64,000 bases of DNA from Clostridiales bacterium (GTDB lineage Bacteria; Bacillota; Clostridia; Christensenellales; CAG-314), in contig JAFLVK010000001.1 of NCBI GenBank assembly GCA_022508345.1, positions 228,371-292,370 on the forward strand, read 5' to 3'. A model generated the notes under the pieces. It was not told where the DNA came from, ran no database searches, and saw only the letters and a program-made list of their open reading frames with translations. The first letter of the stretch is position 1. Every line of letters begins with the position of its first letter. Below, piece after piece: positions 2,549-53,690 of this stretch. The translations under genes and the position numbers were made by a program.

Positions 2549-5500
2549 TTAATCCTCTGTTTTTCTTAGTCCAAGCGAGCATATTATTTGTGTCAATTTA
2601 TGTTCGGTTTCAAAACCGTCTTTATTACATAGCCTGTCTTCATTCATAAGCGTTGTAACTAACTCAACAAGCTGTTCATCGCTAATACCTGCTTTTAACT
2701 GGCGCGAAATAACATCACGTGCATACTCCTTGATTGGATACTTGTAAATATCATCAAGAGCACGTTTGTTATCATCTGTTATGAAAATTGTACCTTCGTT
2801 TTCTTCGAGATATCTACTCATACGCATGTATGTTTTGTACTTGACACCAGTCTTGCGACCCAATGTGCCTGTAGCGTTGCGTTCCTCTGTAGAAATCAGC
2901 TCTATGCCCTGCTTAACAATTTTGTGATGATTTTCAAGTCTTGGTTGTACTGCACAATCAAAGTCACACTCTGCTGCCTTAAGTATTGCAAACTGTGATT
3001 GAGTAACTATCTGACCATTGGCATCCAACCATGTCATTACATCATTTCCTTCATACGTGCGCGCATAGACGACAACACCATCTTCGTTTTTGGCTGTTGT
3101 GTTGCTTTTGGTGCTGAATACAACGTCTGGCAAATTGGACACTGTGTTCTTTAACTCCGGATGTTGGTCTATCGCATTCTTCCAAATTTGATATGCGTAA
3201 GATGCAAGGTCAACCTCGGTGTCGTCTTGTTCATCAAATATTCCTGCCTTTTCACTGTACAAGTCAGAAATATTGATAGGATCGCCATCGAAGAATACCT
3301 CGTCTGAGCCAACCACTTCGGCATTATCTTTTATGCGCTTTTTGAGCTTTTTGCGTAACCCAATAATTTTTTCGATACCGTCTTCCGGAAGGAAAGAGTA
3401 ACACAATATTTGCTCTGCTTCCTGCCCAAGTCTGTCAACACGACCGGCACGTTGAATAAGTCGGATAAGCGCCCAAGGTAAATCGAAATTTACCACAATA
3501 TGTGAATCTTGCAAGTTTTGTCCTTCACTCAAAACATCTGTTGAAATTAAGACGCGCAATTCGTTGCTTTTGTTGACATCAGTGGTTTTATTACTCTTAG
3601 GGCTAAACTGTTTTACCAAGTCGGAAATATTTTCGCTGCCACCCACTGCAACACCTATGTTATCTATGCCAAGTTTTTTCAATTCGTCAAATAAGTAATT
3701 GGCTGTATCGGCAAATTGAGTAAATACGAGTATTTTCTCGTTCTTATGTGAATCTGTAATAAATTGAGCAAGCGCTTGCAATTTCCTGTCCTGATTTGCA
3801 TGCCATTCAGGGACCTTTTTGAGTATTGAAAGAAGAGATATGTTGTCTTCATTCAGTGCTTGGGATAACTTTTCACGGTCAAAATACTGAGCTCGCATCC
3901 ATTTGAAATTACTTTGTCTATTTTGACTAAATTCTTGATACAAATCCTTAGCTTTCGCTTGATATTCTTCCTTTGTAAAGCCAAAGTAAGAACTGCCGAA
4001 AAGAAGTTCATCATCCTCTACATCGGAATAAAAATCGACATCAACGGAACTTCCACCGACAGGCACCGGTAGGTTGTTTTCTACGGCGTACGCGACTATG
4101 TAATTTCTAAGAATCAATCTGCTAACCGAAAGCAAAAATGCGTAGCCGGAACTTTCCAAACGTTTGTATAAGTTAGTACGACAAAATCCTCTCGTGCGTC
4201 GTCCCGCACGTGAAAGTCCTTCAACTAACGCTGCTTCCTCGGAATTCATGCTTTTGACTTCTTTTTTTTTTATATAATCTAGAAGACTGTAGCGAGGCAA
4301 CTCAAGGTCATCAATACGCTGTACTATACTTTTCCCATATAACCTTGCGTATTCGTCGGTTTTATCCTCCAAGTTCAAAGCAAACTCAACTTTCTTGGGA
4401 ATTCTGTCGGGGAAATACGAGCGTTGACCATTAGCGAATTCTATGTACTTACGACCAGTTTGTAAATCTATTTGTGCATAATTAGCTTTAATAAAACTTC
4501 GTGTTCTACGAACTAAATACTGCTTCATCAACTCACGCCAATCATCAGCACAGTCGCTTTTTTCAAAAGCGTTTATGCTACGTATATGCGTATCTGTATG
4601 TTTGGCGTGAAATTGTATTACACCACCAAGTTTATTGATGTAATGTTCCGGACTAATACCTAAATCATAGTCCTCTGGCAAGAATAGCTTGAGTTGACTT
4701 GCTAAATCCTGATAAGACTTGTTATATGGCGTTGCAGATAGAAGAACAACTTTGCTGTCGTTATCCTCTATGTACGACTTGACCATTTTATATGTTTTAT
4801 TTTCACTATTTCGGAAATTGTGACTTTCATCGATGATAACTAGACGGTAGCGACGCAAATTGCGCAATTCTTTTACCATGCTGTGTGACAATATTCTTGC
4901 ATGTAGACCGTACTTCTCAACGTATCCACGCCACATTTCTTCCAGATTTTTTGGACACAAAATGAGTGTATTAAAGCCAATGTCATCTTCCATAATCTTT
5001 GCTATAGCAGAAGCGACCATTGTTTTGCCCAAACCGACAACGTCGCCAACCATAACACCATTTCGCTTATTAAGATGATGTGCCGCAATTAAAACAGCCT
5101 TTTGTTGAAAATCCAACAATTCTCTTTCGAATTCTCTTGGCAACTTGAACTCACTAATACCTGTACGTGCTTCTTGCGACAAATGATATGCCATTTTGAG
5201 ATAAACATTGTACGGAGGGATTGATTCCTCACGCGCCCAGCTTTCCTCAATTACCTTTATCAATTCTTTTGTAATATCTATAGACCAACGATCGTTCCAC
5301 CTATCATCAAACCATTTAGCAAGCTTAGTTGCAGCATCCTGCTCTAAAACGTCAACATTCAACTCGCCTTGGTTTTGCAATCCGGAAAATGTAAAATTGC
5401 TACTGCCGACTAATGCAAGTTTATCTGTTATAGTGTCTTTAGAATATGCCAGATAGAGCTTGGCATGAAGTTGATGACGAAGAAACAGTTTTATAACTAC

Positions 5501-5902
5501 CTTGCCGCTTTTTAATTGTTTGAGTAAATGTTGAATAGTTTTTTCATCTTCATTTGTTGGAGTACCAACTGTAAGTTGTTTGCGTAGCTCCGTGGCAAGT
5601 TGTTTTTTCAATGCATTGGCTTTCTTTTGATCAATCAAGCTGCCATCTCTAGGATCCAATTCGTCAATGATTGTATCCAATGGTAACTTGGTCATGCCAA
5701 CAAGTAAGCGACAGTATCTTACTACTGTCTCTTCATTTTCTTCGACAGGCATGCCATCTAATAAATCAATTTGATCGCAGACTGTCTTCCAGCCGCGAAT
5801 ATTGAAATAGCCTGCACAATAATCGACTCTCTTTGCCACACTAATATGTTGCTTGAGTCCATGTGCAAATTGAAGTTCTATGTTGTCGTATATTTTAGGC
5901 AT
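2549..5902 (-). CDS. Phospholipase D-like nuclease domain fused to SNF2/superfamily 2 helicase (restriction/defence-type)
   Basis: 1117 aa; HKD-type HAKLYLAYSKD...GSSNFTFSG, Walker A GDVVGLGKTM, motif II VIIDESHNFRN, motif VI QRAGRVDRLGQ. Confidence 0.9.
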   Translation of the reverse strand: MPKIYDNIELQFAHGLKQHISVAKRVDYCAGYFNIRGWKTVCDQIDLLDGMPVEENEETVVRYCRLLVGMTKLPLDTIIDELDPRDGSLIDQKKANALKKQLATELRKQLTVGTPTNEDEKTIQHLLKQLKSGKVVIKLFLRHQLHAKLYLAYSKDTITDKLALVGSSNFTFSGLQNQGELNVDVLEQDAATKLAKWFDDRWNDRWSIDITKELIKVIEESWAREESIPPYNVYLKMAYHLSQEARTGISEFKLPREFERELLDFQQKAVLIAAHHLNKRNGVMVGDVVGLGKTMVASAIAKIMEDDIGFNTLILCPKNLEEMWRGYVEKYGLHARILSHSMVKELRNLRRYRLVIIDESHNFRNSENKTYKMVKSYIEDNDSKVVLLSATPYNKSYQDLASQLKLFLPEDYDLGISPEHYINKLGGVIQFHAKHTDTHIRSINAFEKSDCADDWRELMKQYLVRRTRSFIKANYAQIDLQTGRKYIEFANGQRSYFPDRIPKKVEFALNLEDKTDEYARLYGKSIVQRIDDLELPRYSLLDYIKKKEVKSMNSEEAALVEGLSRAGRRTRGFCRTNLYKRLESSGYAFLLSVSRLILRNYIVAYAVENNLPVPVGGSSVDVDFYSDVEDDELLFGSSYFGFTKEEYQAKAKDLYQEFSQNRQSNFKWMRAQYFDREKLSQALNEDNISLLSILKKVPEWHANQDRKLQALAQFITDSHKNEKILVFTQFADTANYLFDELKKLGIDNIGVAVGGSENISDLVKQFSPKSNKTTDVNKSNELRVLISTDVLSEGQNLQDSHIVVNFDLPWALIRLIQRAGRVDRLGQEAEQILCYSFLPEDGIEKIIGLRKKLKKRIKDNAEVVGSDEVFFDGDPINISDLYSEKAGIFDEQDDTEVDLASYAYQIWKNAIDQHPELKNTVSNLPDVVFSTKSNTTAKNEDGVVVYARTYEGNDVMTWLDANGQIVTQSQFAILKAAECDFDCAVQPRLENHHKIVKQGIELISTEERNATGTLGRKTGVKYKTYMRMSRYLEENEGTIFITDDNKRALDDIYKYPIKEYARDVISRQLKAGISDEQLVELVTTLMNEDRLCNKDGFETEHKLTQIICSLGLRKTED

Positions 5903-41927: not shown

Positions 41928-41965
41928 AGCCATTTATCACGTCAACATACAATATAATAAACAAA

Positions 41966-42000
41966 ACAACGCTTGGAAAGCTCCAAGCGTTGTTTTTGTG
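41966..42000. terminator. Intrinsic terminator
   Basis: aacgcttggaaagctccaagcgttgttttt. Confidence 0.7.
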
Positions 42001-42011
42001 TTTAGATGTGT

Positions 42012-45000
42012 TTACCACACATAAATGTTATTTGTTACGTAGTTGTACGCTGTTCCCGACGTGGGGGTCATGAGGTTGAGTTCATATGTAGCGTTCATGA
42101 TTTCTATCATTTCCGCGGTTCCGTTTATTTGAGTGAGCTTGACGTTACCGTCGTTGAAGTTGCCCTCATCGTCGTAGCCTACGTTGTCGAAGTTGCCTGT
42201 GTGAATGATATTTGCAGTTATCACACCAAGCGCGCTGTCAATGGGTGACAAGTCTGCTTTCAGGGCAAAGGTACCTATTTCTGTCGCTTCGACGTAGCTG
42301 TAGGTGTAGGATTTGAATATGTCTTCAATGCCGTACACGTTGGTGTTTTCCTTGCCGATAGCCTTGCGTATTTGACTGTCAATCATATTACCAAGGTTGA
42401 TTGTGTCAAGTATGTAACCTACCATTGTCGAGGTGTCGGCAGTAAATTCCGAAAGCTTCATGTTCTCAATCATAAAGCTGGGCAGTTGATTGCCTACGGG
42501 CGCTTGGGTGTCCAGGAAGGATTGCTTTTTGCGCCATGCAGCGTGCAAAATGCTGTTGCTACAAGTCCAGTTTCCGCAACGGCTGCAATAGGTGTAGTCA
42601 CTGTAGGAATCACGGTACAGGCTGACAGTGCTGTCCTTGGTGTTGAGCAACATGTAGCTGTATCCGCCGTCGTCGGCGTAAATCATGCCACTGAGTATAC
42701 CTGATGCGTCGCGCGAAAGCTTTACAGCAAGGTACACGTTGTTGTCACTGTCGATATCGACGTGTATTGTGATGCCGATTATTGCTTTGTTGCCAAGAAG
42801 CGTAGCGTTGATCTTTCCCTCAAGTGCAAACGACCTGTAGCCGTTTTCGTCCGTGTTGTCCGCCGTGATGATAAATGCGGAAAGCAACTCGCGTATGCTG
42901 TCGAAGTTCATGTGGCTGTTGATGTCGCCGCGTTCTTGGAAGTATGATTCTATGTAATCACGTACGTATTCGAATTCGTCCGTGCCTTCAATCTTGTTGG
43001 AGCCTGTTACCACTACTTCCACCAGGTTGACCGATACGTTGCCGTAACCCAGTGTCAACTGGTCGAGGCTCAAGCCCTCATTGCCGTATTCGGACACTTT
43101 CAGCGTTATCGGTTCACTGTCGAACTTGTTGGAGTCGATTGCGCTACCGTTGATTTGCAGTGTGAATTTCCTGTCGACGTACGAAATGGATTCGATTATC
43201 TGCGACACGTTACCCAGCGTCATCTTGCCTTGCGCATTTGCCATTGCCGACTTGACGTCGTCTATCACGGTGCCTATTTGCGGTACAACCTTGATTAGCG
43301 CGGGCAACAAGTCGATTGTTTCCTTGATTGCATCAAGAGACACTGTTGCTTTGAGTTCGTTTTTGTTGTTGTTACTCTTGTTGGAATCGTATGTTGCGTA
43401 AATTCTGCCGTCGATGAACGCTACGTCAAGATACAGGAACTCATTGCCGTCCTTTTGCACTGTGAGCTTTGCGCGCACTTTGCTGTTTTGCGGTGCCGTC
43501 TTGTTGTAGTAGAACGCCACGTACGAGCCACTTAAAATTTGATATTTCGTTGTAGTTCCGTCGTCGTTTTTGACGGTTATTTCCGAATCTTTGTTGAAGC
43601 TGAACATCCAGCTGTTTGTGTGCACCAGGTTGTAGATAGGTCCTTCGCCGCCCTCGCCGTAGTAGAAGTCGTCAAATACCTGATCGACACTTACGTAATC
43701 GCTATCCTTGTCGGAGAACTTGGTGTACTCATGGCAAATAGAGCTGAAGGTAACAACGAAGTCACTTTGCAGCATATCAACGGGAACGGTTATGCTGTTG
43801 AGCCCCCTGTTGAATGAAGCTGTGATGTCAAAGCCCAATGCCTTTGCACCAACAAGTACGTTGCCGTCACTGCGTGAGATAAACAGCGATTTCACAATTG
43901 CTTTCAGGTCGATGTCGCCACCAAGCGAACCGAACAGGTCGGGCAAAGCCTGATCGCCTGCACCGGCGTACTCGTTTACAATGTCGTTAATGCGGTTAAC
44001 AATGCTTGCAATGTTGTTGATTTGTACAAGGACGTTGAGGTGTTTGCCGTTTGTAAGCTTCAAAACATTGTCGCTAACTGTGTACTTCGCGTCGAGATAC
44101 GTCACGGTACCGTTGGGCATTGTAGTTTCAATACGAATGAGTATTACACCGTTTAACAGGTCAAGGTTAGCGTAAATTACATTGTGTTCGCCGCTTGTGT
44201 TGGCATTGTTGTCCACCTTGACGTCAACTACAATGTTCGTGCTAAAGTTGCCGTCGGGAGCAGTGATTTCGCCGTCAAAGGCAAAGATATTTGCATTGTT
44301 GATGTTCAGTGCGATACCGTTGTAGCTTAAGCCGTTTACGGAAATGCTAAGTCCGTTTGCGTTAGCCAATGCCAGTGTAAAGATGTTCAAGCCGAACTGC
44401 TGTCCGTTTACACCCAACGTCACGTTGCCGTTGTTGTAGGTGAGCGACGACAAAAGCTGTTCGAAGTTTACTTCACTAGCAGGTGTGTTCAATACGTTGA
44501 GTACAAGCTCCACTATTTGGTCAACGTAGCTGTTGTAGCCCTGGGCCTTGGACAGTGTTTCCTTGATGCTATCCAATGTCGTTTCGCCCTTGTCGGTGTT
44601 GTCACCAAGGGACAGAGCAAAGCGTATGTCGCCCGACTGTAGATACAGTACTTTGTCCACAACCCACAGCTCGCCCGCTATCATTTGCGTGCCTTCGTAG
44701 CACAAGTCAAATTCAACGTAGACATTGTTGTTGAGCTTCAATGTTGCCTTGAAGCTGTACACTCTACCGTTTAGAGCTATGCTGCCGTCGATACCGATGT
44801 TGTAGCCGCTAGCACCAACAATTTCTGCAACAGGCTCAGCAAATGCACCTGTAAGCTTGGCAATATCCACGTAACCGCCGGAGGGCAGTACAGGATATTT
44901 TTCACCGTGGACCTGCTCTGCTGTCAGGCTAAGTTCGCCTGCGTTTACTTGCACCGCTGCAAGGGCAACGCTGTTTTCGGTTGCTGTAAAGTTCACTGCT

Positions 45001-48000
45001 ACCGCTACACTGCCGTAGGTTACTTCCAGCGTGTAGCCGTCACTTGTGTTGCGACGGGCAAGGGTGATGTTGTCCCAAATACCCATCAATGTTTCGGCAA
45101 TGTTGCCGTTGCCGTCGAAGTTCATTTGAGGCAGTTCCACAAAGCGGGAAATTGCTTCGAGCAAAACGTCTATGTCGTCAAGGTCAAGCTTGAAGCCAAC
45201 ATTGCTGCGATTGCCGTAGGTTAAGTACACAACGCCATTTGCGTACTTGAAGTTGACTGTTTGTCCGTAAGCTACTGCCGTGCCTACAACCGTGTTGTGA
45301 TACAAGTCCAGCTTGACAATAGCGGAAATTTCATTGCCTACATTAAACTTAAGCTCCGTTACGTAGCTGTCAAGCTTGGGAGCAACAACCTGCTCACTGC
45401 TGCCACGCACTGCGGCACTTGCGTTGTAATTTACGTTTGCTACGCGTCCGCTAGCGTCAACGGTGAGTGTGCTGCCAAGACCCAGCTTCAATGCTACTTC
45501 GCCAAGACCCAGCTGTGCCAGGTCAAGCTTGAGCGTAAGCTCACCGTTAGCAAATGTTAGGCTGTCGATTATTTGTGATAATACAATGCCGTCAAGGTAA
45601 TCGGGAAGCTGCTTTGCGTATTGCACCAAGCTGTCCAGCTCGCCGTTGATACCGTCAAGCATACCGATTGCGCCCAAGATTGCAGCGATGTCAATGTCGC
45701 TACTGTTTGAGTCGGGCAACACTACTGCCTGGCGTATGCCGTTGACGTCGAAGTACAGCGTGCCGTCCACAAGGTAAATTTCCGCGCTGACAACTGCCTT
45801 GCCGTTGTGTTTGAGTATTGCGTTGAGGTACAGCCCGCCGTTGAGGTTGAACGTAACGTCTGCACTGTAGCGTGCTCCGTTTACTGTCAAATCAAGTGAC
45901 AGACTTGCGGATATTGTGTTGATGTTTCTAAATGCCGCAACTGTGTCCACAATGCTTTCAACAAGTGCGTTGCCGTCCACAAATTCGCCGCTAACGTCCA
46001 ATTGCTCGGCACGTTTAGTTTGTGCGGATATTGTTGCAACCTGAGCTTTGCCGCCCAGTTCAAAGCGTACGGAAACATTGTCAAACACAAGCTTGTTGTC
46101 TACGTTTGTAAAGTTTATGCTTGCGCGTACACCGCTTACGTCCACTGATACGTTGGGTGTTTCGCCCGTTAAATCTGATTGAATTGCCGACAGTACTGCC
46201 AGCACCTTGGTTATATCAAGTGAGTTGGTTGCGGGCAGTCCTGTTACAAGCTTGCCCAGCTTGCTTACAACTGTATCCAGCTCGGATGTGTTGAGCACAA
46301 CCTTTGCCCCGCCGTACTGTATGTAAACCTTGCCGTTGAGGTAGCGTACAAGCATCAATTCCTTGCTGTACTTGACGCTTGCCCAAATGTCCATATGTAC
46401 AAGGTCCAGCGTGAGCTGTAGCTCTGCACCCATAAGCTCACCTGCAAGGCTGAGCATGTATTCATTTGTGTTGGGGATGGCAATCTGTTCGGCTGTGTTG
46501 AGTACCACTGCGGATACGTCCAAGCCAACACCTGCAACACTAAGTCCGCCAATGCCTACTGCAAGGCATCCGTTACAATTAGCAAGAGTAATATCCAATG
46601 CAAGACCGTCTACTCCCAAAGCGTTGCCGTTTACGGACAGCGACAGTACGCCCTTTTCAAACCTGAACGCCGTAACAACAGACGTGAAGTCAACGTCCAG
46701 CAAGTCGGCAAGGGTGAAGTTGGTTGCAACGCCAATCAAGGTTGTTGCCTGTTCCACTAGCTGTGCAAGCTCTGCCCGACTGTTCAAAATTTCCTTTATT
46801 TGCGCGTTGTTGAGCAGCTCACTTACCTTAGCGATAACGTCAACATCGCTGCTGCCGTTCACTGCGAACGCCACTTTTACACCGTTGACTGAGAGGAACA
46901 CAGTGTCATTTGCGTAGATAACTTCCGCGTCAATCACGCCAAGTTTTCCGTCGTAAATTGTTGCGTTGAGCTTCAAGGTTTTGTTGAGGTCAACAGATAC
47001 CTTGCCCACAACGTCGTATTGCTTTCCGCCAATGGCAAGCGTAGCGTTGAAGTTGGCGCCGTAAACATTTCCGCGAACGATGTCAAGCAGGGGCTCGGCA
47101 AATGTTTCCACAAGCTCGGTGATGTCCGCATACGCTTCGCTGTCGCTAGGCACTGAAACGTCCGACAGTACTTCCGCGCCCACAATCACCGCACTGATAC
47201 CCTCTGCAACTGCTGTGATACTGTGCAGGTTCCACCTGCCGTTGTTATTTGCAAGGCGGAGGCTAGCGTCGATACCCATGACGGACAGGTTGAAGTCCAC
47301 ACCGCCCTCTACTTGCGTTGTAGAAATGCTACCAAGCAATGCCAAAACAGATTGCGCCGAAATTGTCATCGAGGGGGTAGCGGTTGCGATATTCAAGCCT
47401 GTGTACTTGTAAACAAGCTCCAACAGCTCGTCGATATTTGCGGTGTCAAGCTTTAACTTCACCTCGCCAAACGCAACATATGCAACGCCGTCAACGTAGG
47501 TAACATTGACTGTTCCGTTGTTGCCCAGCTCTGCTGTGATATCCATGTTGCCTGTAGCAAGCTCCACCAAAACGTCGGCGTTGACTGCGTATTTACCCAG
47601 TGTTAATTGCGCGTTTAATGCAATTTTACCGTTTTGAAGCAGGTCCACCAAGCCCAAAATTTCGGGATATGCGCCCGTGCGCTCTGCCACTGTCCATGCA
47701 CATGGAGTGATGTTGATTTCCACGTCGCCAATTGTTATGATTGCGCTTGTAAACGTATATGTTTCGCCGTCGACGTCGCCGTACAGCTTGGCGTCAATTG
47801 TCAAGTCGCCCAAGCTTACAGGCAGGCTTACCACAACCTTGCCGTCAGCAACGGAATATGTGAGATTGTCCAGTAGCGATGCTATATCGAAGTCGCCCAA
47901 AGCAACGCTTGTTGTGCCGTCGCCAAACAACGGAGCAAGTACATACACCAGCTCAACAATGCCGCTCACTGTGGTGCTGCCTTGGAAATCCTTGTACTTG

Positions 48001-49109
48001 AGATATATCGCACCGTCGCCGTGCACGTAAGCAAGGTCAAGATTGCCTATCTTCAAGTTGACGGCAAGCTTTGACAAATCGGCAATGTCCAAGCCTTCAA
48101 TGGACACCAGTCCGTCCACTACAATGTCGCCATTGTTGCGTGCAGCAATTGCCACTTGCAAATCCTGCCCGTTCAAGTAGGGTGAGAACATTTCCATCAG
48201 CACGTCAAGCGCGGTTTGCTCATTGACTATGCCGTCGTCGGGGTTTTCCGTGAAATACTGCTCGAAGAAATCTTTGTTGGGAAGGTCGCCCTCGTACGGG
48301 GTGAACACTTCGGTTATGTCTTCAACGCAGGTTGCATTGATACCCATTGTCTGCGCCTTGTATTCGCAGTCGGTACGGAGCGTTTTGACATTGAAGTCGG
48401 CGTCCATTGCAACGTAAATTACGCATCGGTTAAAGCTGGGCTCACTGTTCAAGCCGCCGTTGAATATCATTTCTCTGCGCAGATACATGGGCGCGGTTTC
48501 CGCATCCAAAACGTAACGGAATGTGTACACGCCGTTCGCTTTGTCCACCAATTCACCGCCGGTTACCGTGTCCCAGTTGAGGATGTAACCGGTAAGCTTG
48601 TCGTTGCGGTGACCGAAATCGCTGTAGAATGCCGCCTCACTCAATGCCTGTGCCGAACTAGCCCAAACCACGTCGTCTATCGAGTTGATCTTGTTGCCCT
48701 TGCGGTAAACATAGTTGTTTTCCCACATGTAAAGCTGATATGCCTTGCCGACAACGCCCTTAGTAACCATTTCCTTAAAGGTGTTTTTGTTGCCGAAGTC
48801 GCCCACAACGTAGCGGGTGTTGCGAACGTACTGCTTTACGCCCACAGCAGTTGACGTTCCGTCTGCAACGCCGTAAAAGCCCTTGCTTTCCAGCAGGAGC
48901 TTGTGCGCTACGAACAAAAATTGTCTTGTATCGGCATTAACGTCGTCGATGTCGATATCGTCGGTTTTGTCCAAATATGTATTTAGATCTTCGCTTGGTT
49001 TTTCAAAAGTGGGAATTTCGCCGCCACCCAAGTTGCGTATGACGAGCACCGTTCCCACCGCCGCAAGCACTGCAGCGAGTAAAAAACACACTATTTTGTA
49101 TTTGGGCAT
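42012..49109 (-). CDS. Giant (2365 aa) exported repeat protein of unknown function
   Basis: Uninterrupted ORF; N-terminal signal/TM MPKYKIVCFLLAAVLAAVGTVLVI; repeated hydrophobic beta-rich units with recurring motifs YVDGVAYVAFGEVKLKLDTANIDELL / YLNGKVYIQYGGAKVVLNTSELDTVV / YANGVVYLTYGNRSNVGFKLDLDDIDVLL / YIDGRIYATYDS. Confidence 0.85.
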   Translation of the reverse strand: MPKYKIVCFLLAAVLAAVGTVLVIRNLGGGEIPTFEKPSEDLNTYLDKTDDIDIDDVNADTRQFLFVAHKLLLESKGFYGVADGTSTAVGVKQYVRNTRYVVGDFGNKNTFKEMVTKGVVGKAYQLYMWENNYVYRKGNKINSIDDVVWASSAQALSEAAFYSDFGHRNDKLTGYILNWDTVTGGELVDKANGVYTFRYVLDAETAPMYLRREMIFNGGLNSEPSFNRCVIYVAMDADFNVKTLRTDCEYKAQTMGINATCVEDITEVFTPYEGDLPNKDFFEQYFTENPDDGIVNEQTALDVLMEMFSPYLNGQDLQVAIAARNNGDIVVDGLVSIEGLDIADLSKLAVNLKIGNLDLAYVHGDGAIYLKYKDFQGSTTVSGIVELVYVLAPLFGDGTTSVALGDFDIASLLDNLTYSVADGKVVVSLPVSLGDLTIDAKLYGDVDGETYTFTSAIITIGDVEINITPCAWTVAERTGAYPEILGLVDLLQNGKIALNAQLTLGKYAVNADVLVELATGNMDITAELGNNGTVNVTYVDGVAYVAFGEVKLKLDTANIDELLELVYKYTGLNIATATPSMTISAQSVLALLGSISTTQVEGGVDFNLSVMGIDASLRLANNNGRWNLHSITAVAEGISAVIVGAEVLSDVSVPSDSEAYADITELVETFAEPLLDIVRGNVYGANFNATLAIGGKQYDVVGKVSVDLNKTLKLNATIYDGKLGVIDAEVIYANDTVFLSVNGVKVAFAVNGSSDVDVIAKVSELLNNAQIKEILNSRAELAQLVEQATTLIGVATNFTLADLLDVDFTSVVTAFRFEKGVLSLSVNGNALGVDGLALDITLANCNGCLAVGIGGLSVAGVGLDVSAVVLNTAEQIAIPNTNEYMLSLAGELMGAELQLTLDLVHMDIWASVKYSKELMLVRYLNGKVYIQYGGAKVVLNTSELDTVVSKLGKLVTGLPATNSLDITKVLAVLSAIQSDLTGETPNVSVDVSGVRASINFTNVDNKLVFDNVSVRFELGGKAQVATISAQTKRAEQLDVSGEFVDGNALVESIVDTVAAFRNINTISASLSLDLTVNGARYSADVTFNLNGGLYLNAILKHNGKAVVSAEIYLVDGTLYFDVNGIRQAVVLPDSNSSDIDIAAILGAIGMLDGINGELDSLVQYAKQLPDYLDGIVLSQIIDSLTFANGELTLKLDLAQLGLGEVALKLGLGSTLTVDASGRVANVNYNASAAVRGSSEQVVAPKLDSYVTELKFNVGNEISAIVKLDLYHNTVVGTAVAYGQTVNFKYANGVVYLTYGNRSNVGFKLDLDDIDVLLEAISRFVELPQMNFDGNGNIAETLMGIWDNITLARRNTSDGYTLEVTYGSVAVAVNFTATENSVALAAVQVNAGELSLTAEQVHGEKYPVLPSGGYVDIAKLTGAFAEPVAEIVGASGYNIGIDGSIALNGRVYSFKATLKLNNNVYVEFDLCYEGTQMIAGELWVVDKVLYLQSGDIRFALSLGDNTDKGETTLDSIKETLSKAQGYNSYVDQIVELVLNVLNTPASEVNFEQLLSSLTYNNGNVTLGVNGQQFGLNIFTLALANANGLSISVNGLSYNGIALNINNANIFAFDGEITAPDGNFSTNIVVDVKVDNNANTSGEHNVIYANLDLLNGVILIRIETTMPNGTVTYLDAKYTVSDNVLKLTNGKHLNVLVQINNIASIVNRINDIVNEYAGAGDQALPDLFGSLGGDIDLKAIVKSLFISRSDGNVLVGAKALGFDITASFNRGLNSITVPVDMLQSDFVVTFSSICHEYTKFSDKDSDYVSVDQVFDDFYYGEGGEGPIYNLVHTNSWMFSFNKDSEITVKNDDGTTTKYQILSGSYVAFYYNKTAPQNSKVRAKLTVQKDGNEFLYLDVAFIDGRIYATYDSNKSNNNKNELKATVSLDAIKETIDLLPALIKVVPQIGTVIDDVKSAMANAQGKMTLGNVSQIIESISYVDRKFTLQINGSAIDSNKFDSEPITLKVSEYGNEGLSLDQLTLGYGNVSVNLVEVVVTGSNKIEGTDEFEYVRDYIESYFQERGDINSHMNFDSIRELLSAFIITADNTDENGYRSFALEGKINATLLGNKAIIGITIHVDIDSDNNVYLAVKLSRDASGILSGMIYADDGGYSYMLLNTKDSTVSLYRDSYSDYTYCSRCGNWTCSNSILHAAWRKKQSFLDTQAPVGNQLPSFMIENMKLSEFTADTSTMVGYILDTINLGNMIDSQIRKAIGKENTNVYGIEDIFKSYTYSYVEATEIGTFALKADLSPIDSALGVITANIIHTGNFDNVGYDDEGNFNDGNVKLTQINGTAEMIEIMNATYELNLMTPTSGTAYNYVTNNIYVW

Positions 49110-49239: not shown

Positions 49240-49280
49240 GTAACAAAAAGGCTCCCATTTGTGAGGGAGCCTGTGTATTG
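49240..49280 (-). terminator. Terminator-like hairpin
   Basis: aaaaaggctcccatttgtgagggagcctgtg downstream of lipoprotein gene. Confidence 0.55.
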
Positions 49281-49306: not shown

Positions 49307-49900
49307 TTATTTGGTAAACAGATAGGTTATCTTCACGTCTGCACCGTTGTTGGAGGTGTAGGTGATTTCTATTTTTTTCAGTGCTGTGTGGCTGTACAGT
49401 ACCGTTACGTGCATGTCGGAGCATTCCACGTTGCCACCAGTAAAGCCTGCGGGATACGCTACGTCAGCATCGAATTTCGTGTTGGAAATTGTGTAATTTT
49501 TGAAAAACGCCTGCTTGAAGCTAATTCCGCTGAAGTCAAGCTCCTGCGGCAATTCAACCGACGTGTCACCCTCGATTACGCTACCGTTTTGCACCACGGC
49601 ACAACCTTGTATTGTATCCTTGTATCTGTCCGCATTGTTCCCGTCCAGGCTAAGCCCGTTTAGCCTGTCAAAGCTGTAATCAACGGTTGTTTTGTCGCTT
49701 TCAAAGGTCATTGTGTATATGCCCTTGAGGGTGATATCTGACGTAGTTGTTGTGGTGCTAAGTACAACTTCGGAGTAACGCACCTTGAGCAGCGATTGCA
49801 AATCCTGCAAGGTGGAGGCGTAGCTGTTGCATGCCGTAAGGCAAGTGAGCGCAACAAAAAGCGCAATTACCAAAAGTAAAATTTTCTTTTTCACGTCCAT
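49307..49900 (-). CDS. Putative lipoprotein of unknown function
   Basis: 197 aa; signal peptide with lipobox LTAC (KKKILLLVIALFVALTCLTACNSYAS). Confidence 0.7.
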   Translation of the reverse strand: MDVKKKILLLVIALFVALTCLTACNSYASTLQDLQSLLKVRYSEVVLSTTTTTSDITLKGIYTMTFESDKTTVDYSFDRLNGLSLDGNNADRYKDTIQGCAVVQNGSVIEGDTSVELPQELDFSGISFKQAFFKNYTISNTKFDADVAYPAGFTGGNVECSDMHVTVLYSHTALKKIEITYTSNNGADVKITYLFTK

Positions 49901-51705
49901 TACCCCCTCAGCATACGCTTGATTACTATTGCCACCAACGCCATAAATGACACGGATATACCGCCTGCCATTATTTGCGCGGCAAGGTTATTTGCCTTGT
50001 CAAATTCGCCGTTGATCTTGTTTATCTCGGCATTGTATTGGTTGAGTGCCGCTTCCAGCTTGGCGTAATTGCCGTTTGCCTTTTGAGCATCCTGGTCACT
50101 TGAGCTCATTTGATTGTAGGCGTCAATTGCCTGCTTGATAGCTGTGTACCGTGCTTCCAGCGTTGTTGCGCTTTCGATTGCTTGCAAGCTTTGCAAAAAT
50201 GCCTGCGAGTTTTCCTCCTGCGTCCTTACCGTAACGGTGATGCTTGCCGATTTGCTCGTGTCAGCCTTGCTTGTTGCGGTTATCGTGGCGGTACCTGAGC
50301 CAACTGCTGTAACCAGCCCTGCCTCACTAACCGTTGCTACACTGCTGTCACTAGTTGACCACGTTACGCTATTGCTTGCGCCGCTGGGACTTGCCGTCAC
50401 CGTCAACTGCCGTGTACTGTTTTGCGTAAGGTTCAACGAACTAGGCGAAATGGAAAGTGATTGCAACGCCGGTCTGGAAACATTTACCGTGAGTGTGGCC
50501 TTGACGTTTGTGTCACGGGTACTGGTTGCTGTTATTGTGGCTGTGCCTTCGTTTTTCGCTGTAACAACTCCTGTTGCGCTAACTTCTGCAACACTGCTGT
50601 TGGAGCTACTCCAACGAACCCTGTTGCTTGCGCCTGACGGTGTTGCCGTAACTGTAATTTGCGAAGAGCTTTGTCCAATTGTTAAATTTAGCGAATTAAC
50701 GGAAAGTGTTAGGCTTGTAGGAGTTTCCTTTTCGTTGTCATTGTCCAAGTAACCCCCCACCTCTTCAACAATATTTTGAAGCTTGTTGCTGTAGCTGTTG
50801 TCGTAGCCGTTGCAGTAAATCATTTCGGCGTACTCGGGGTGGTCGATAAACGGGTTGCGGTTACCCTGAATATTGGCAACAACATTGTTGCGGCGAATTT
50901 CCTCGTCTGTTGGCGGTTCTTCAAGGTGCCAACGCATAAGGTCGGAAATCTTACCTATGCCCTTGCCGTTGGAGGATGATATACCGTCAACAAAGTACAA
51001 ATTGTTTTCGTCACCCCAACGAACCTGCATGTAAAACAAAATTCGCGCCGTTGCTCCACGGTATCCCTTGGCAGGGTAAAACAGCTTGCTTCCGCCGTAG
51101 CTACCCAGATAACACAACTCGTCCGCCGTGCTGCCGTAGTTTAACGAACCTGCTTCCTTCACGGCATTTGCGTTGGACTGCTCTACAATACCGAAGCCGT
51201 AGTTACTTCTTGCATTATTTAACAGTGATTCTGTCGGACGAAGGTGATGTGCGTCAGCACCGGGACCGGTTGTAGCGGGGAAGGTGTCGCCACCGTGTTT
51301 AGCCCAAACGTGCTCACGGTTAGTTGTACCCGATGAACTGCCCAAGGTTCCGTTATATGACGCGGACGTTCCCGTGTAAAACCAAATGATGTTGCCGCTT
51401 TTTTTGGGGTCGGCATCGGCGGTTTTGAATACCGTCTTCAAGCCGTCGTAGGATGTCAACGTCTTGTGCGTACTTGTTATCAAGCTTGCCAATTGGCTAC
51501 GGAACGCTGCACCCGTCAAGTCCGTATTGAGATTGTTGTAGTAGGTTCCCGTATAGGAATTGGTCCACTCATCTCGGCTTTCAACAGTAACAGCCTGTGC
51601 AACATTGGCGTTGTTGACGCTGCATATGGGAACCAACACAGCGCATGCCAACACAAAAGTTAGCATCAACGCAACGGCTATCCCTATCTTTCTGCTTTTT
51701 ATCAT
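49900..51705 (-). CDS. Surface-anchored endonuclease I (EndA/NucM family) with two BIG2 Ig-like domains and C-terminal TM
   Basis: TNREHVWAKHGG, GADAHHLRPTESLLNNARSN, QGNRNPFIDHPEYA; two repeats of LxLxSxxLxLxxGxSxxxTVTAxPSGASNxVxWSxSxSSVAxVSxxGxVTAxxxGTATITATS; start MIKSRKIGIAVALML at 51705. Confidence 0.88.
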   Translation of the reverse strand: MIKSRKIGIAVALMLTFVLACAVLVPICSVNNANVAQAVTVESRDEWTNSYTGTYYNNLNTDLTGAAFRSQLASLITSTHKTLTSYDGLKTVFKTADADPKKSGNIIWFYTGTSASYNGTLGSSSGTTNREHVWAKHGGDTFPATTGPGADAHHLRPTESLLNNARSNYGFGIVEQSNANAVKEAGSLNYGSTADELCYLGSYGGSKLFYPAKGYRGATARILFYMQVRWGDENNLYFVDGISSSNGKGIGKISDLMRWHLEEPPTDEEIRRNNVVANIQGNRNPFIDHPEYAEMIYCNGYDNSYSNKLQNIVEEVGGYLDNDNEKETPTSLTLSVNSLNLTIGQSSSQITVTATPSGASNRVRWSSSNSSVAEVSATGVVTAKNEGTATITATSTRDTNVKATLTVNVSRPALQSLSISPSSLNLTQNSTRQLTVTASPSGASNSVTWSTSDSSVATVSEAGLVTAVGSGTATITATSKADTSKSASITVTVRTQEENSQAFLQSLQAIESATTLEARYTAIKQAIDAYNQMSSSDQDAQKANGNYAKLEAALNQYNAEINKINGEFDKANNLAAQIMAGGISVSFMALVAIVIKRMLRG

Positions 51706-51785
51706 GGAGCTTCTCCTTGAAATATGCTTGAGATTATTATACACCTAAATTCGTGTGAAGTAAATACTTTTTTTTGCACTATAGT

Positions 51786-51826
51786 ATATGCAAAAATGAG
51801 ACAGCACTTCTGTCTCATTTTGTTTT
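51786..51826 (-). terminator. Intrinsic terminator
   Basis: caaaaatgagacagcacttctgtctcattttgtttt. Confidence 0.65.
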
Positions 51827-53020
51827 GAGTAACGGTATTGACACCGTAAATGTAATTCGCCCGTTGTGACATTCGGCGGTGATTTTGCCACGGTGAGTGT
51901 GTGTTATTACCTGTGCAATGGACAACCCCAAGCCGTTGCCGGCGTTGCTTTTGTTGCGGGATTCGTCCACGGTGTAAAATCGGTCAAACAGGTGCTCAAG
52001 CTGCTCTTCAGTCAGCTCCTCGCAGTCGTTACTGACACTAATGTGTACGTTTTTGCCTACGTTTTCCACCTCAAGCAATATGTTGCCCGCGCCAATGGAG
52101 TATTTGTTGGCGTTGTCTAGCAATATCGCTACAAGCTGCTTTAGCTGACCGTCGTTTCCGAAAACAATCAAGTCCGACGTTATACTGTAGTTGAAAATCT
52201 TGCCGTTTTCGTACAGAACCGACTCGTGCGACAGCACTATCGTTTCAACACATTCGGAAATGTTTACCTTGTCCATTTGCGCTTTCAAGCCGTCGTCGTT
52301 TTTGGCAAGGAACAGCAAATCGTTTATCAAATCTGCCATACGTTCCGATTCCAAGCGGGTGTTTTCTATCCATTTCTTTTGGCTTTCCACCGTTTCGTCG
52401 CCGTGTGAGGCAATAATTTCCGTATTTGCCATGATGACGGACAACGGCGTTTTCAGCTCGTGCGAAGCGTCGGCAAGGAACTGCTTTTGCTTGTTCCAGC
52501 TTTCCTCAACGGGCGCAAGAGCCACGCGTGCAAGAACGTAACTGATTACAAGATAGCTAATTGAGCCTACAACAAGCGCAATCAGCGTGTAAATCATGTA
52601 CAGCAGCACACCCCTCATGTTGGAATGCCTGTCGTACAGCGCAACTCGTGTAACACCGTCCACCGAACGCTTGGCGTACAGCACACGAACGCTTGCCCAA
52701 CCCTCGTTTTTCTCCTTGGAGACAACCTTTTTCACCACCGACTCGATTTGCTCATCGCTTAAGCGTACGTCCTCGCCGGTAGTTGTCCAAAGCGTGTTGG
52801 CATTGTCCTCGTCGTACTCCACCACGACAACGCCCTTTAGCTTGGATATTTCCAGGTCGCGCAAGCTTTCCTGTTCCACAATACCGTTGAGCCGTATGAT
52901 ACGTTCGTCGTTAATGCGCGCATATCCCGTGCTGAAAACCAACACCATAGCCACAGCAAATACAATACACACGGATACAACATTTATTGCTATTATCTTT
53001 TTGCGAAGCTTGCTAATCAA
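51815..53020 (-). CDS. Sensor histidine kinase
   Basis: 401 aa; two TM, ADASHELKTPLSVIMANTEII H-box, GNGLGLSIAQVITHTHRGKI. Confidence 0.93.
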   Translation of the reverse strand: MISKLRKKIIAINVVSVCIVFAVAMVLVFSTGYARINDERIIRLNGIVEQESLRDLEISKLKGVVVVEYDEDNANTLWTTTGEDVRLSDEQIESVVKKVVSKEKNEGWASVRVLYAKRSVDGVTRVALYDRHSNMRGVLLYMIYTLIALVVGSISYLVISYVLARVALAPVEESWNKQKQFLADASHELKTPLSVIMANTEIIASHGDETVESQKKWIENTRLESERMADLINDLLFLAKNDDGLKAQMDKVNISECVETIVLSHESVLYENGKIFNYSITSDLIVFGNDGQLKQLVAILLDNANKYSIGAGNILLEVENVGKNVHISVSNDCEELTEEQLEHLFDRFYTVDESRNKSNAGNGLGLSIAQVITHTHRGKITAECHNGRITFTVSIPLLKTK

Positions 53021-53690
53021 TGGTAGTCTCCAGGTAATAACCGAGCAAACGCTTGGTGCTTATTGTAACCTTGCTTTCAAGGAAGGTGAGCTTTTTGCGC
53101 AAAAAGGACACGTACGCTTCCACGTTGTTTTCCGTGATGTCGCTGTCCAAGCCCCACACCTTGGATATGATTGTGTCCTTGCTTATCACCTGTGTGGGGT
53201 TGCTCAAAAGCAGGCGCATGATTTCGTACTCCTTGGCACCGAGAGACACCACCTTTTGCCCGCATTTGAGCGTGTAATTAGATGTGTCCAGCGTGATGTC
53301 GTTGAATGTCAACTCGTCGTAAACCATATCCGTGCGACGGCGTGTCAAAGCACGAACCCGCGCAAGCAGCTCTTCGGAGGCAAAGGGCTTGGTGAGATAG
53401 TCGTCCGCACCGCAGTCCAAGCCACGCACCCTGTCGTCAACTTCGTCTTTGGCAGTTAACATAAGTACAGGTACGTTGATTTTGTTGCGACGCAAGCGTT
53501 CCACTACTTCAAAGCCGTCCATTTTGGGCAGCATGACGTCCAAAACTACAACGTCGTAATCCCCCTTTTTGGCGTAAAAGTATCCGTCTTCGCCGTCGTA
53601 CACCACGTCTGTTATAAACTTGTTTTGCCTGAATAGCTCACCCAAAGCATCGGCAAGCTTTACTTCGTCATCGACAATCAGTACCTTCAT
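53013..53690 (-). CDS. OmpR-family response regulator
   Basis: 225 aa; KVLIVDDEVKLADALGELF, DVVVLDVMLPKMDGFEV, winged-helix C-terminus; overlaps kinase start by 8 bp. Confidence 0.95.
   Translation of the reverse strand: MKVLIVDDEVKLADALGELFRQNKFITDVVYDGEDGYFYAKKGDYDVVVLDVMLPKMDGFEVVERLRRNKINVPVLMLTAKDEVDDRVRGLDCGADDYLTKPFASEELLARVRALTRRRTDMVYDELTFNDITLDTSNYTLKCGQKVVSLGAKEYEIMRLLLSNPTQVISKDTIISKVWGLDSDITENNVEAYVSFLRKKLTFLESKVTISTKRLLGYYLETTID

Follow-up and report, generated by a model that had tools for sequence, protein, structure and literature searches.

In Gram-positive bacteria, periscope proteins and fibrillar adhesins project a tip past the cell wall. Near-identical tandem repeats define the periscope class (PMC9704523). 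Among other very large surface proteins, Giant1-5 of Apilactobacillus combine beta-solenoid and helical repeats with SH3b-like domains (PMC12863079). Members of the LolA superfamily are unified by hydrophobic ligand binding despite very low sequence similarity, and the LolA fold is an 11-stranded sheet in which a lid between strands 6 and 7 separates strands 1-6 from strands 7-11 (PMC6363788). The solved superfamily members that have been compared carry one such domain per chain, to which RseB adds a separate C-terminal domain (PMC6363788). The repeat of RBG proteins consists of five strands and a loop that crosses back over the groove (PMC7613979).

A gene in a 64,000-nucleotide stretch of contig JAFLVK010000001.1 from a Clostridiales bacterium (hereafter the window) encodes a protein of 2365 residues that invites comparison with each of these systems. 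On a near-even balance, this giant is read here as a membrane-tethered string of LolA-type hydrophobic-ligand cups serving multivalent capture at the surface; a ligand-free stalk is ranked as the main rival, and a serious one. Like the LolA superfamily (LolA, LolB, LprG/LppX, RseB/MucB, VioE, EPDR1; CATH 2.50.20), the giant is exported, and the likeness extends to the predicted topology of each ~190-aa unit, to a predicted sheet with one hydrophobic face and to the top Foldseek matches. It differs from the superfamily in carrying at least nine domains in one chain together with a membrane helix, and in lacking detectable sequence similarity. With SasG, Rib and Sgo0707, as examples of periscope proteins and fibrillar adhesins, it shares fixed ends that enclose tandem domains in variable number and, in some homologues, recent duplications, but it is anchored by an N-terminal helix rather than a C-terminal sortase motif, its own repeats are strongly diverged and its predicted fold is different. 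Giant1-5 are similar as very large surface proteins of a small (~1.5 Mb) Gram-positive genome, although the predicted fold is unrelated. The likeness to RBG, AsmA/TamB and VPS13 proteins is that of a long, membrane-anchored, beta-rich repeat chain with helices and a possible role in lipid handling, whereas the repeat itself differs, neither structure nor sequence gives a match and the host is monoderm. A literature search that missed most subscription journals found no description of tandem LolA-like domains; if the predicted fold is right, the giant would arrange a known fold in a new way.

Architecture of the giant

The sequence-only reading that first drew attention to this locus had proposed one uninterrupted 7.1-kb frame. 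Its coordinates and strand prove exact (Table 1), translation from an ATG start runs through 2365 codons with no internal stop, and every A and B motif listed in that reading is present in the product. The gene occurs once in the 1.4-Mb assembly (47 contigs, 95% complete) and is a real one, since open homologues, full-length or nearly so, are present in many genomes.

The protein matches no curated family over any of its length. Searches of Pfam, NCBIfam and PHROGs return no match over cut-off, and PDB sequences return no significant match. The absence of LPXTG, SLH or known adhesin repeats, remarked on from the sequence alone, is borne out by a Pfam search without any anchor, SLH or adhesin domain, and no known adhesin or S-layer repeat family emerges from any of the four collections. 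A Pfam match to the EFF-AFF fusogen (E 0.0086) falls short of the cut-off and is ascribed to chance, while LpqN, considered as a relative of the N-domain, aligns without significance (E 0.07 over 35 residues).

As read from the sequence, the chain begins with a membrane helix and continues through an N-domain and nine profile-confirmed units (U0-U8) to a divergent tenth unit that holds a cysteine-rich insert (Table 1). No segment after residues 6-25 exceeds a hydropathy of 1.8. The N-domain (~225 aa) is unrelated in sequence to the repeat unit (1.4% profile probability).

Table 1. Features of the giant gene and its flanks, in window coordinates
Feature	Position	Strand	Description or evidence
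Giant gene	42012..49109	-	2365 aa, acidic (pI 4.4), no C-terminal anchor
N-terminal hydrophobic helix (signal anchor), residues 6-25	49035..49094	-	hydropathy 2.98 over 19 residues
N-domain, residues 60-285	48255..48932	-	best conserved part; in other families alone as 278-297-aa proteins
U0, residues 286-474	47688..48254	-	profile match to unit family, 99.5%
U1, type A, residues 475-657	47139..47687	-	core HMM; AF2 (predicted) 6 strands/lid/5 strands
U2, type B, residues 658-876	46482..47138	-	core HMM; AF2 (predicted) helix + 6 strands/helical lid/5 strands
U3, type A, residues 877-1037	45999..46481	-	core HMM, self-alignment
U4, type B, residues 1038-1243	45381..45998	-	core HMM, self-alignment
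U5, type A, residues 1244-1409	44883..45380	-	core HMM, self-alignment
U6, type B, residues 1410-1622	44244..44882	-	core HMM, self-alignment
U7, residues 1623-1845, conserved C-terminal block	43575..44243	-	profile 98.3%; conserved in 13 homologues
U8, residues 1846-2042, conserved C-terminal block	42984..43574	-	core HMM; profile 97.0%
U9, residues 2043-2365, divergent C-terminal unit	42015..42983	-	conserved in 14 homologues
CSRCGNWTC, residues 2175-2183, cysteine-rich zinc-ribbon-like insert in U9	42561..42587	-	CxxC-type motifs at this place
Terminator-like hairpin between upstream lipoprotein gene and giant	49249..49272	-	8 pairs, then TTTTTG; consensus scan
15-pair hairpin after giant, possible two-way terminator	41963..41996	.	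consensus scan only

Internal repetition, as claimed in the sequence-only reading, is evident from self-alignment. The best Smith-Waterman score within the giant is 589, whereas 20 global shuffles reach at most 130 and 20 local shuffles that preserve composition at most 144. BLAST self-comparison reports no repeats, probably because sub-alignments within the full self-match are dropped. Copies of an A+B pair are offset by 366-390 aa, and a weaker offset of ~190-215 aa separates A from B. The recurrence every 350-400 aa that had been described is thus that of the pair, while the actual unit is ~190 aa long. The alternation of two unit types also stands, but the types are homologous: profiles built separately from A units and from B units match at 96.5% probability (E 8e-10), so A and B are diverged variants of a single ~190-aa domain. 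A core profile detects 232 such domains in ~40 proteins, the median unit being 191 aa long. Six units are obvious, as had been listed, but the array is longer, and profile comparison adds U0 (residues 286-480, 99.5%), U7 (1625-1845, 98.3%) and U8 (1846-2042, 97.0%). Pairs of units within the giant are only ~22% identical (median), which argues that its array is old.

U9 is linked to the array solely through U8 (77% probability over 63 columns) and is likely the distal tip of the protein. CxxC-type inserts of variable sequence occupy the same site in most same-genus homologues (L032, L040-L043, L044, L046), and the cysteine-rich insert may bind metal.

Predicted fold and possible ligand binding

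All homologues checked have a single N-terminal hydrophobic segment and no other clear membrane segment, nearly all have a pI of 4.1-4.8, and a few distant ones carry a lipobox-like motif where the giant has helix 6-25. The host is taken to be monoderm because Omp85 is absent from 21 relatives in a search whose control genomes gave the expected positives. The exported giant would be tethered to the membrane on its outer side, with a length sufficient to span the wall.

Two AlphaFold models, computed from small alignments (6 rows for model 1, 12 rows for model 2), suggest how a unit might fold. In model 1, which covers an A and a B unit (residues 478-880; mean pLDDT 57.7), the A unit is predicted as a helix, six strands, two helices and five strands, and the B unit as a helix, six strands, a helical stretch and five strands. 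Model 2, of an A unit with a different alignment (pLDDT 57.5), gives the 6-5 strand pattern again with one extra weak strand before it. The pTM values of the unit models are 0.41 and 0.37. When the models are compared with the PDB by Foldseek, model 1 finds Pseudomonas LolA first (E 4e-5, probability 1.00) and model 2 an E. coli LolA mutant (2zpc; E 4.7e-3, probability 0.99); RseB/MucB of the LolA superfamily are also listed, as are DNA sliding clamps at lower probability. TM-scores to LolA are 0.13-0.36 on these low-confidence models (pLDDT ~57), where about 0.5 or more would mark a global superposition; the agreement with LolA is a local one in the order of elements, and the models are too weak to settle the global shape.

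Sequence comparison gives no corresponding signal. The units and the N-domain match a LolA profile, itself thin at six sequences, with hhalign probabilities of 0.07-0.35%, and LolA (PF03548) is not among the Pfam matches of 63 units. Recognised superfamily members often show no such similarity either. The predicted strands are one-faced, with a mean hydrophobic/polar difference of 3.5 compared with 1.5 in permutations (none of 2000 as high). This property counts less for cups than it might, as one-faced strands fit any one-sided beta-sheet. The repeat unit probably has a LolA-type fold, to judge from the predicted models, and tandem LolA-like beads are the best reading of the giant though not a proven one. 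The suggestion of a LolA- or LppX-like half-barrel, made from the sequence alone, is supported in predicted topology but not proven. The predicted order of six strands, lid and five strands and the leading position of LolA in Foldseek speak for the LolA likeness, while the lack of profile similarity and the low pLDDT and TM-scores speak against it. Each whole ~190-aa unit looks, in the models, like one complete fold.

The same one-faced strands, set in a long alternation of helix and strand behind an N-terminal membrane anchor such as some bridge proteins have, could also belong to units that join into a continuous hydrophobic channel of the RBG, AsmA or VPS13 kind, along which lipids would slide from the membrane to the outer wall. 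Such an extended groove had been proposed in the sequence-only reading, and we consider it highly improbable. The 11 predicted strands per unit split 6+5 on the low-confidence models, unlike the five strands and loop of the RBG repeat (PMC7613979), and the first and second halves of the unit show no convincing homology (1.5-39% profile probability). No RBG, AsmA or VPS13-type protein appears among the 50 best structural matches, and no AsmA or TamB domain is matched in Pfam by the giant or its units. The host probably lacks a second membrane that a bridge could reach, since no outer-membrane marker is detected (no Omp85 in 21 relatives). Separate beads are favoured over a groove because of the 11-strand repeat, the lack of convincing homology between its halves, the absence of RBG proteins from the top 50 and the duplication of a single unit in one homologue (L057).

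In the preferred reading of the giant as a string of cups, each ~190-aa domain would fold alone into a LolA-type beta-clam, a curved 11-stranded sheet with a hydrophobic concave face, and the string would extend through the cell wall. Close to the cell, each bead could capture acyl chains, a lipid, a lipopeptide or some other hydrophobic substance. An array of beads would raise capacity, the ligand being either sequestered or handed on, and the tip domain would meet the outside. The step from fold to function carries slightly more doubt than belief: the units may bind a hydrophobic ligand, and no transporter or lipid gene consistently adjoins the giant at homologue loci. It seems rather unlikely that the string acts as a wall-spanning relay, in which some ten linked LolA-type cups would pass or store hydrophobic molecules between membrane and outside, so that a single chain would do the work of the soluble carriers of the diderm periplasm. 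Little is understood, to our knowledge, of how hydrophobic molecules pass the thick monoderm wall; lipid-carrier domains strung together covalently would, if this reading is true, be a new route across it.

Homologues and change in unit number

Of the 25 same-genus genomes, 20 contain a homologue of the giant, and homologues also occur in two other genera of the family. The gene is probably accessory, since it went undetected in the other five same-genus genomes. Its spread across the order is patchy (34 of 297 genomes), the class sample (388 genomes) yields a single N-domain-sized match outside the order, and the rest of the phylum sample contains no homologue. The family thus hardly extends beyond one order of monoderm Clostridia, and these order-specific giant surface proteins are absent from Pfam and NCBIfam. 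No plasmid copies were found.

A survey of homologue lengths, which the sequence-only reading had recommended, reveals a series of frames from N-domain-only proteins of 278-297 aa (~280), one of them with a clear lipobox, to more than 3400 aa. Up to 16 units are detected per homologue, and counts are lower bounds because several homologues are cut by contig ends; near-identical repeats may also be collapsed in assembly. The N-domain and the C-terminal block are conserved between homologues, while the middle varies in unit number. This number changes when one, two or four units are duplicated, which makes one ~190-aa unit look self-contained. Recent duplications are found in L035, L057 and L059, where near-identical units share 98% and 89% (L035), 91-96% (L057, units 3-5) and 87% identity (L059).

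Fixed ends around a variable middle, together with near-identical recent duplications in three homologues, are also what a stalk of variable length would display. The repeats would then be rigid, ligand-free spacers, and the conserved C-terminal tip that they carry past the wall (U7-U9, including the cysteine-rich insert) would serve adhesion or contact between cells, an explanation that is possible but on balance doubtful. An acidic, exported giant with a single anchor suits such a role, as does its probable accessory status, with no detection in 5 of 25 same-genus genomes. However, most repeats of the giant are only ~22% identical, unlike the near-identical repeats of periscope proteins (PMC9704523), and values of 87-98% are reached just in L035, L057 and L059. 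Conservation is highest in the N-domain, near the membrane, rather than in the tip, and Pfam shows no stalk, anchor or adhesin domain of a known kind. Repeat divergence and N-domain conservation count only mildly against a pure stalk. Even if the units are plain spacers, the series from N-domain alone to many repeats, with its fresh duplications, would be useful for studying the origins of giant repeat proteins.

Two observations on individual homologues may be added. In L057 (7418-11287) and L035 (3-9740), units that are 89-98% identical at the protein level may lead the assembly to under-count them, and strain variation is possible. In L060 (8033-14485), from another family, the C-terminus is an alanine-rich, coiled-coil-like stretch that replaces the usual terminal domain.

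Neighbouring genes

An endonuclease I gene, whose product has Big_2 domains and a membrane segment, lies directly upstream of the giant in 15 same-genus loci. A gene for a 197-aa lipoprotein nearly always stands between the two, and the group usually follows a response regulator and a sensor kinase. In the window, the region 49307-51744 (minus strand) contains the 197-aa lipoprotein gene and the gene for a secreted endonuclease I, which has two Big_2 domains and ends in a hydrophobic segment, and a two-component system lies at 51815-53690. The nuclease and lipoprotein genes probably form one operon, since they overlap by one base in the window, and they are kept together across the genus. The lipoprotein has no known domain, and its candidacy as a single free unit of the array was rejected (profile match 0.5%).

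This arrangement would place the giant, if the synteny were functional, as the surface scaffold of an endonuclease I/lipoprotein system for DNA capture or nutrient scavenging. Such a role is highly improbable. Of the 25 same-genus genomes, 24 have the lipoprotein, among them all five in which no giant was detected, and G014 and G005 retain it with no giant beside it. The giant has different neighbours in other genera and families, a terminator-like hairpin lies between it and the lipoprotein gene, and the shared synteny may be mere neighbourhood conservation. This hairpin and the one after the giant (Table 1) come from a consensus scan whose total hits are near the shuffle mean. Endonuclease I and the lipoprotein are probably unrelated to the giant's function.

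In one same-genus locus without a detected giant (L097, 12047-15247), a different gene, for a 1066-aa lipoprotein, adjoins the endonuclease/lipoprotein pair. Elsewhere in the window, at 2549-5902 (minus strand), lies a gene for a 1117-aa protein that combines a PLD-type nuclease with an SNF2 helicase; its best PADLOC match is an HKD+Snf2 candidate defence protein (E 1.7e-53).
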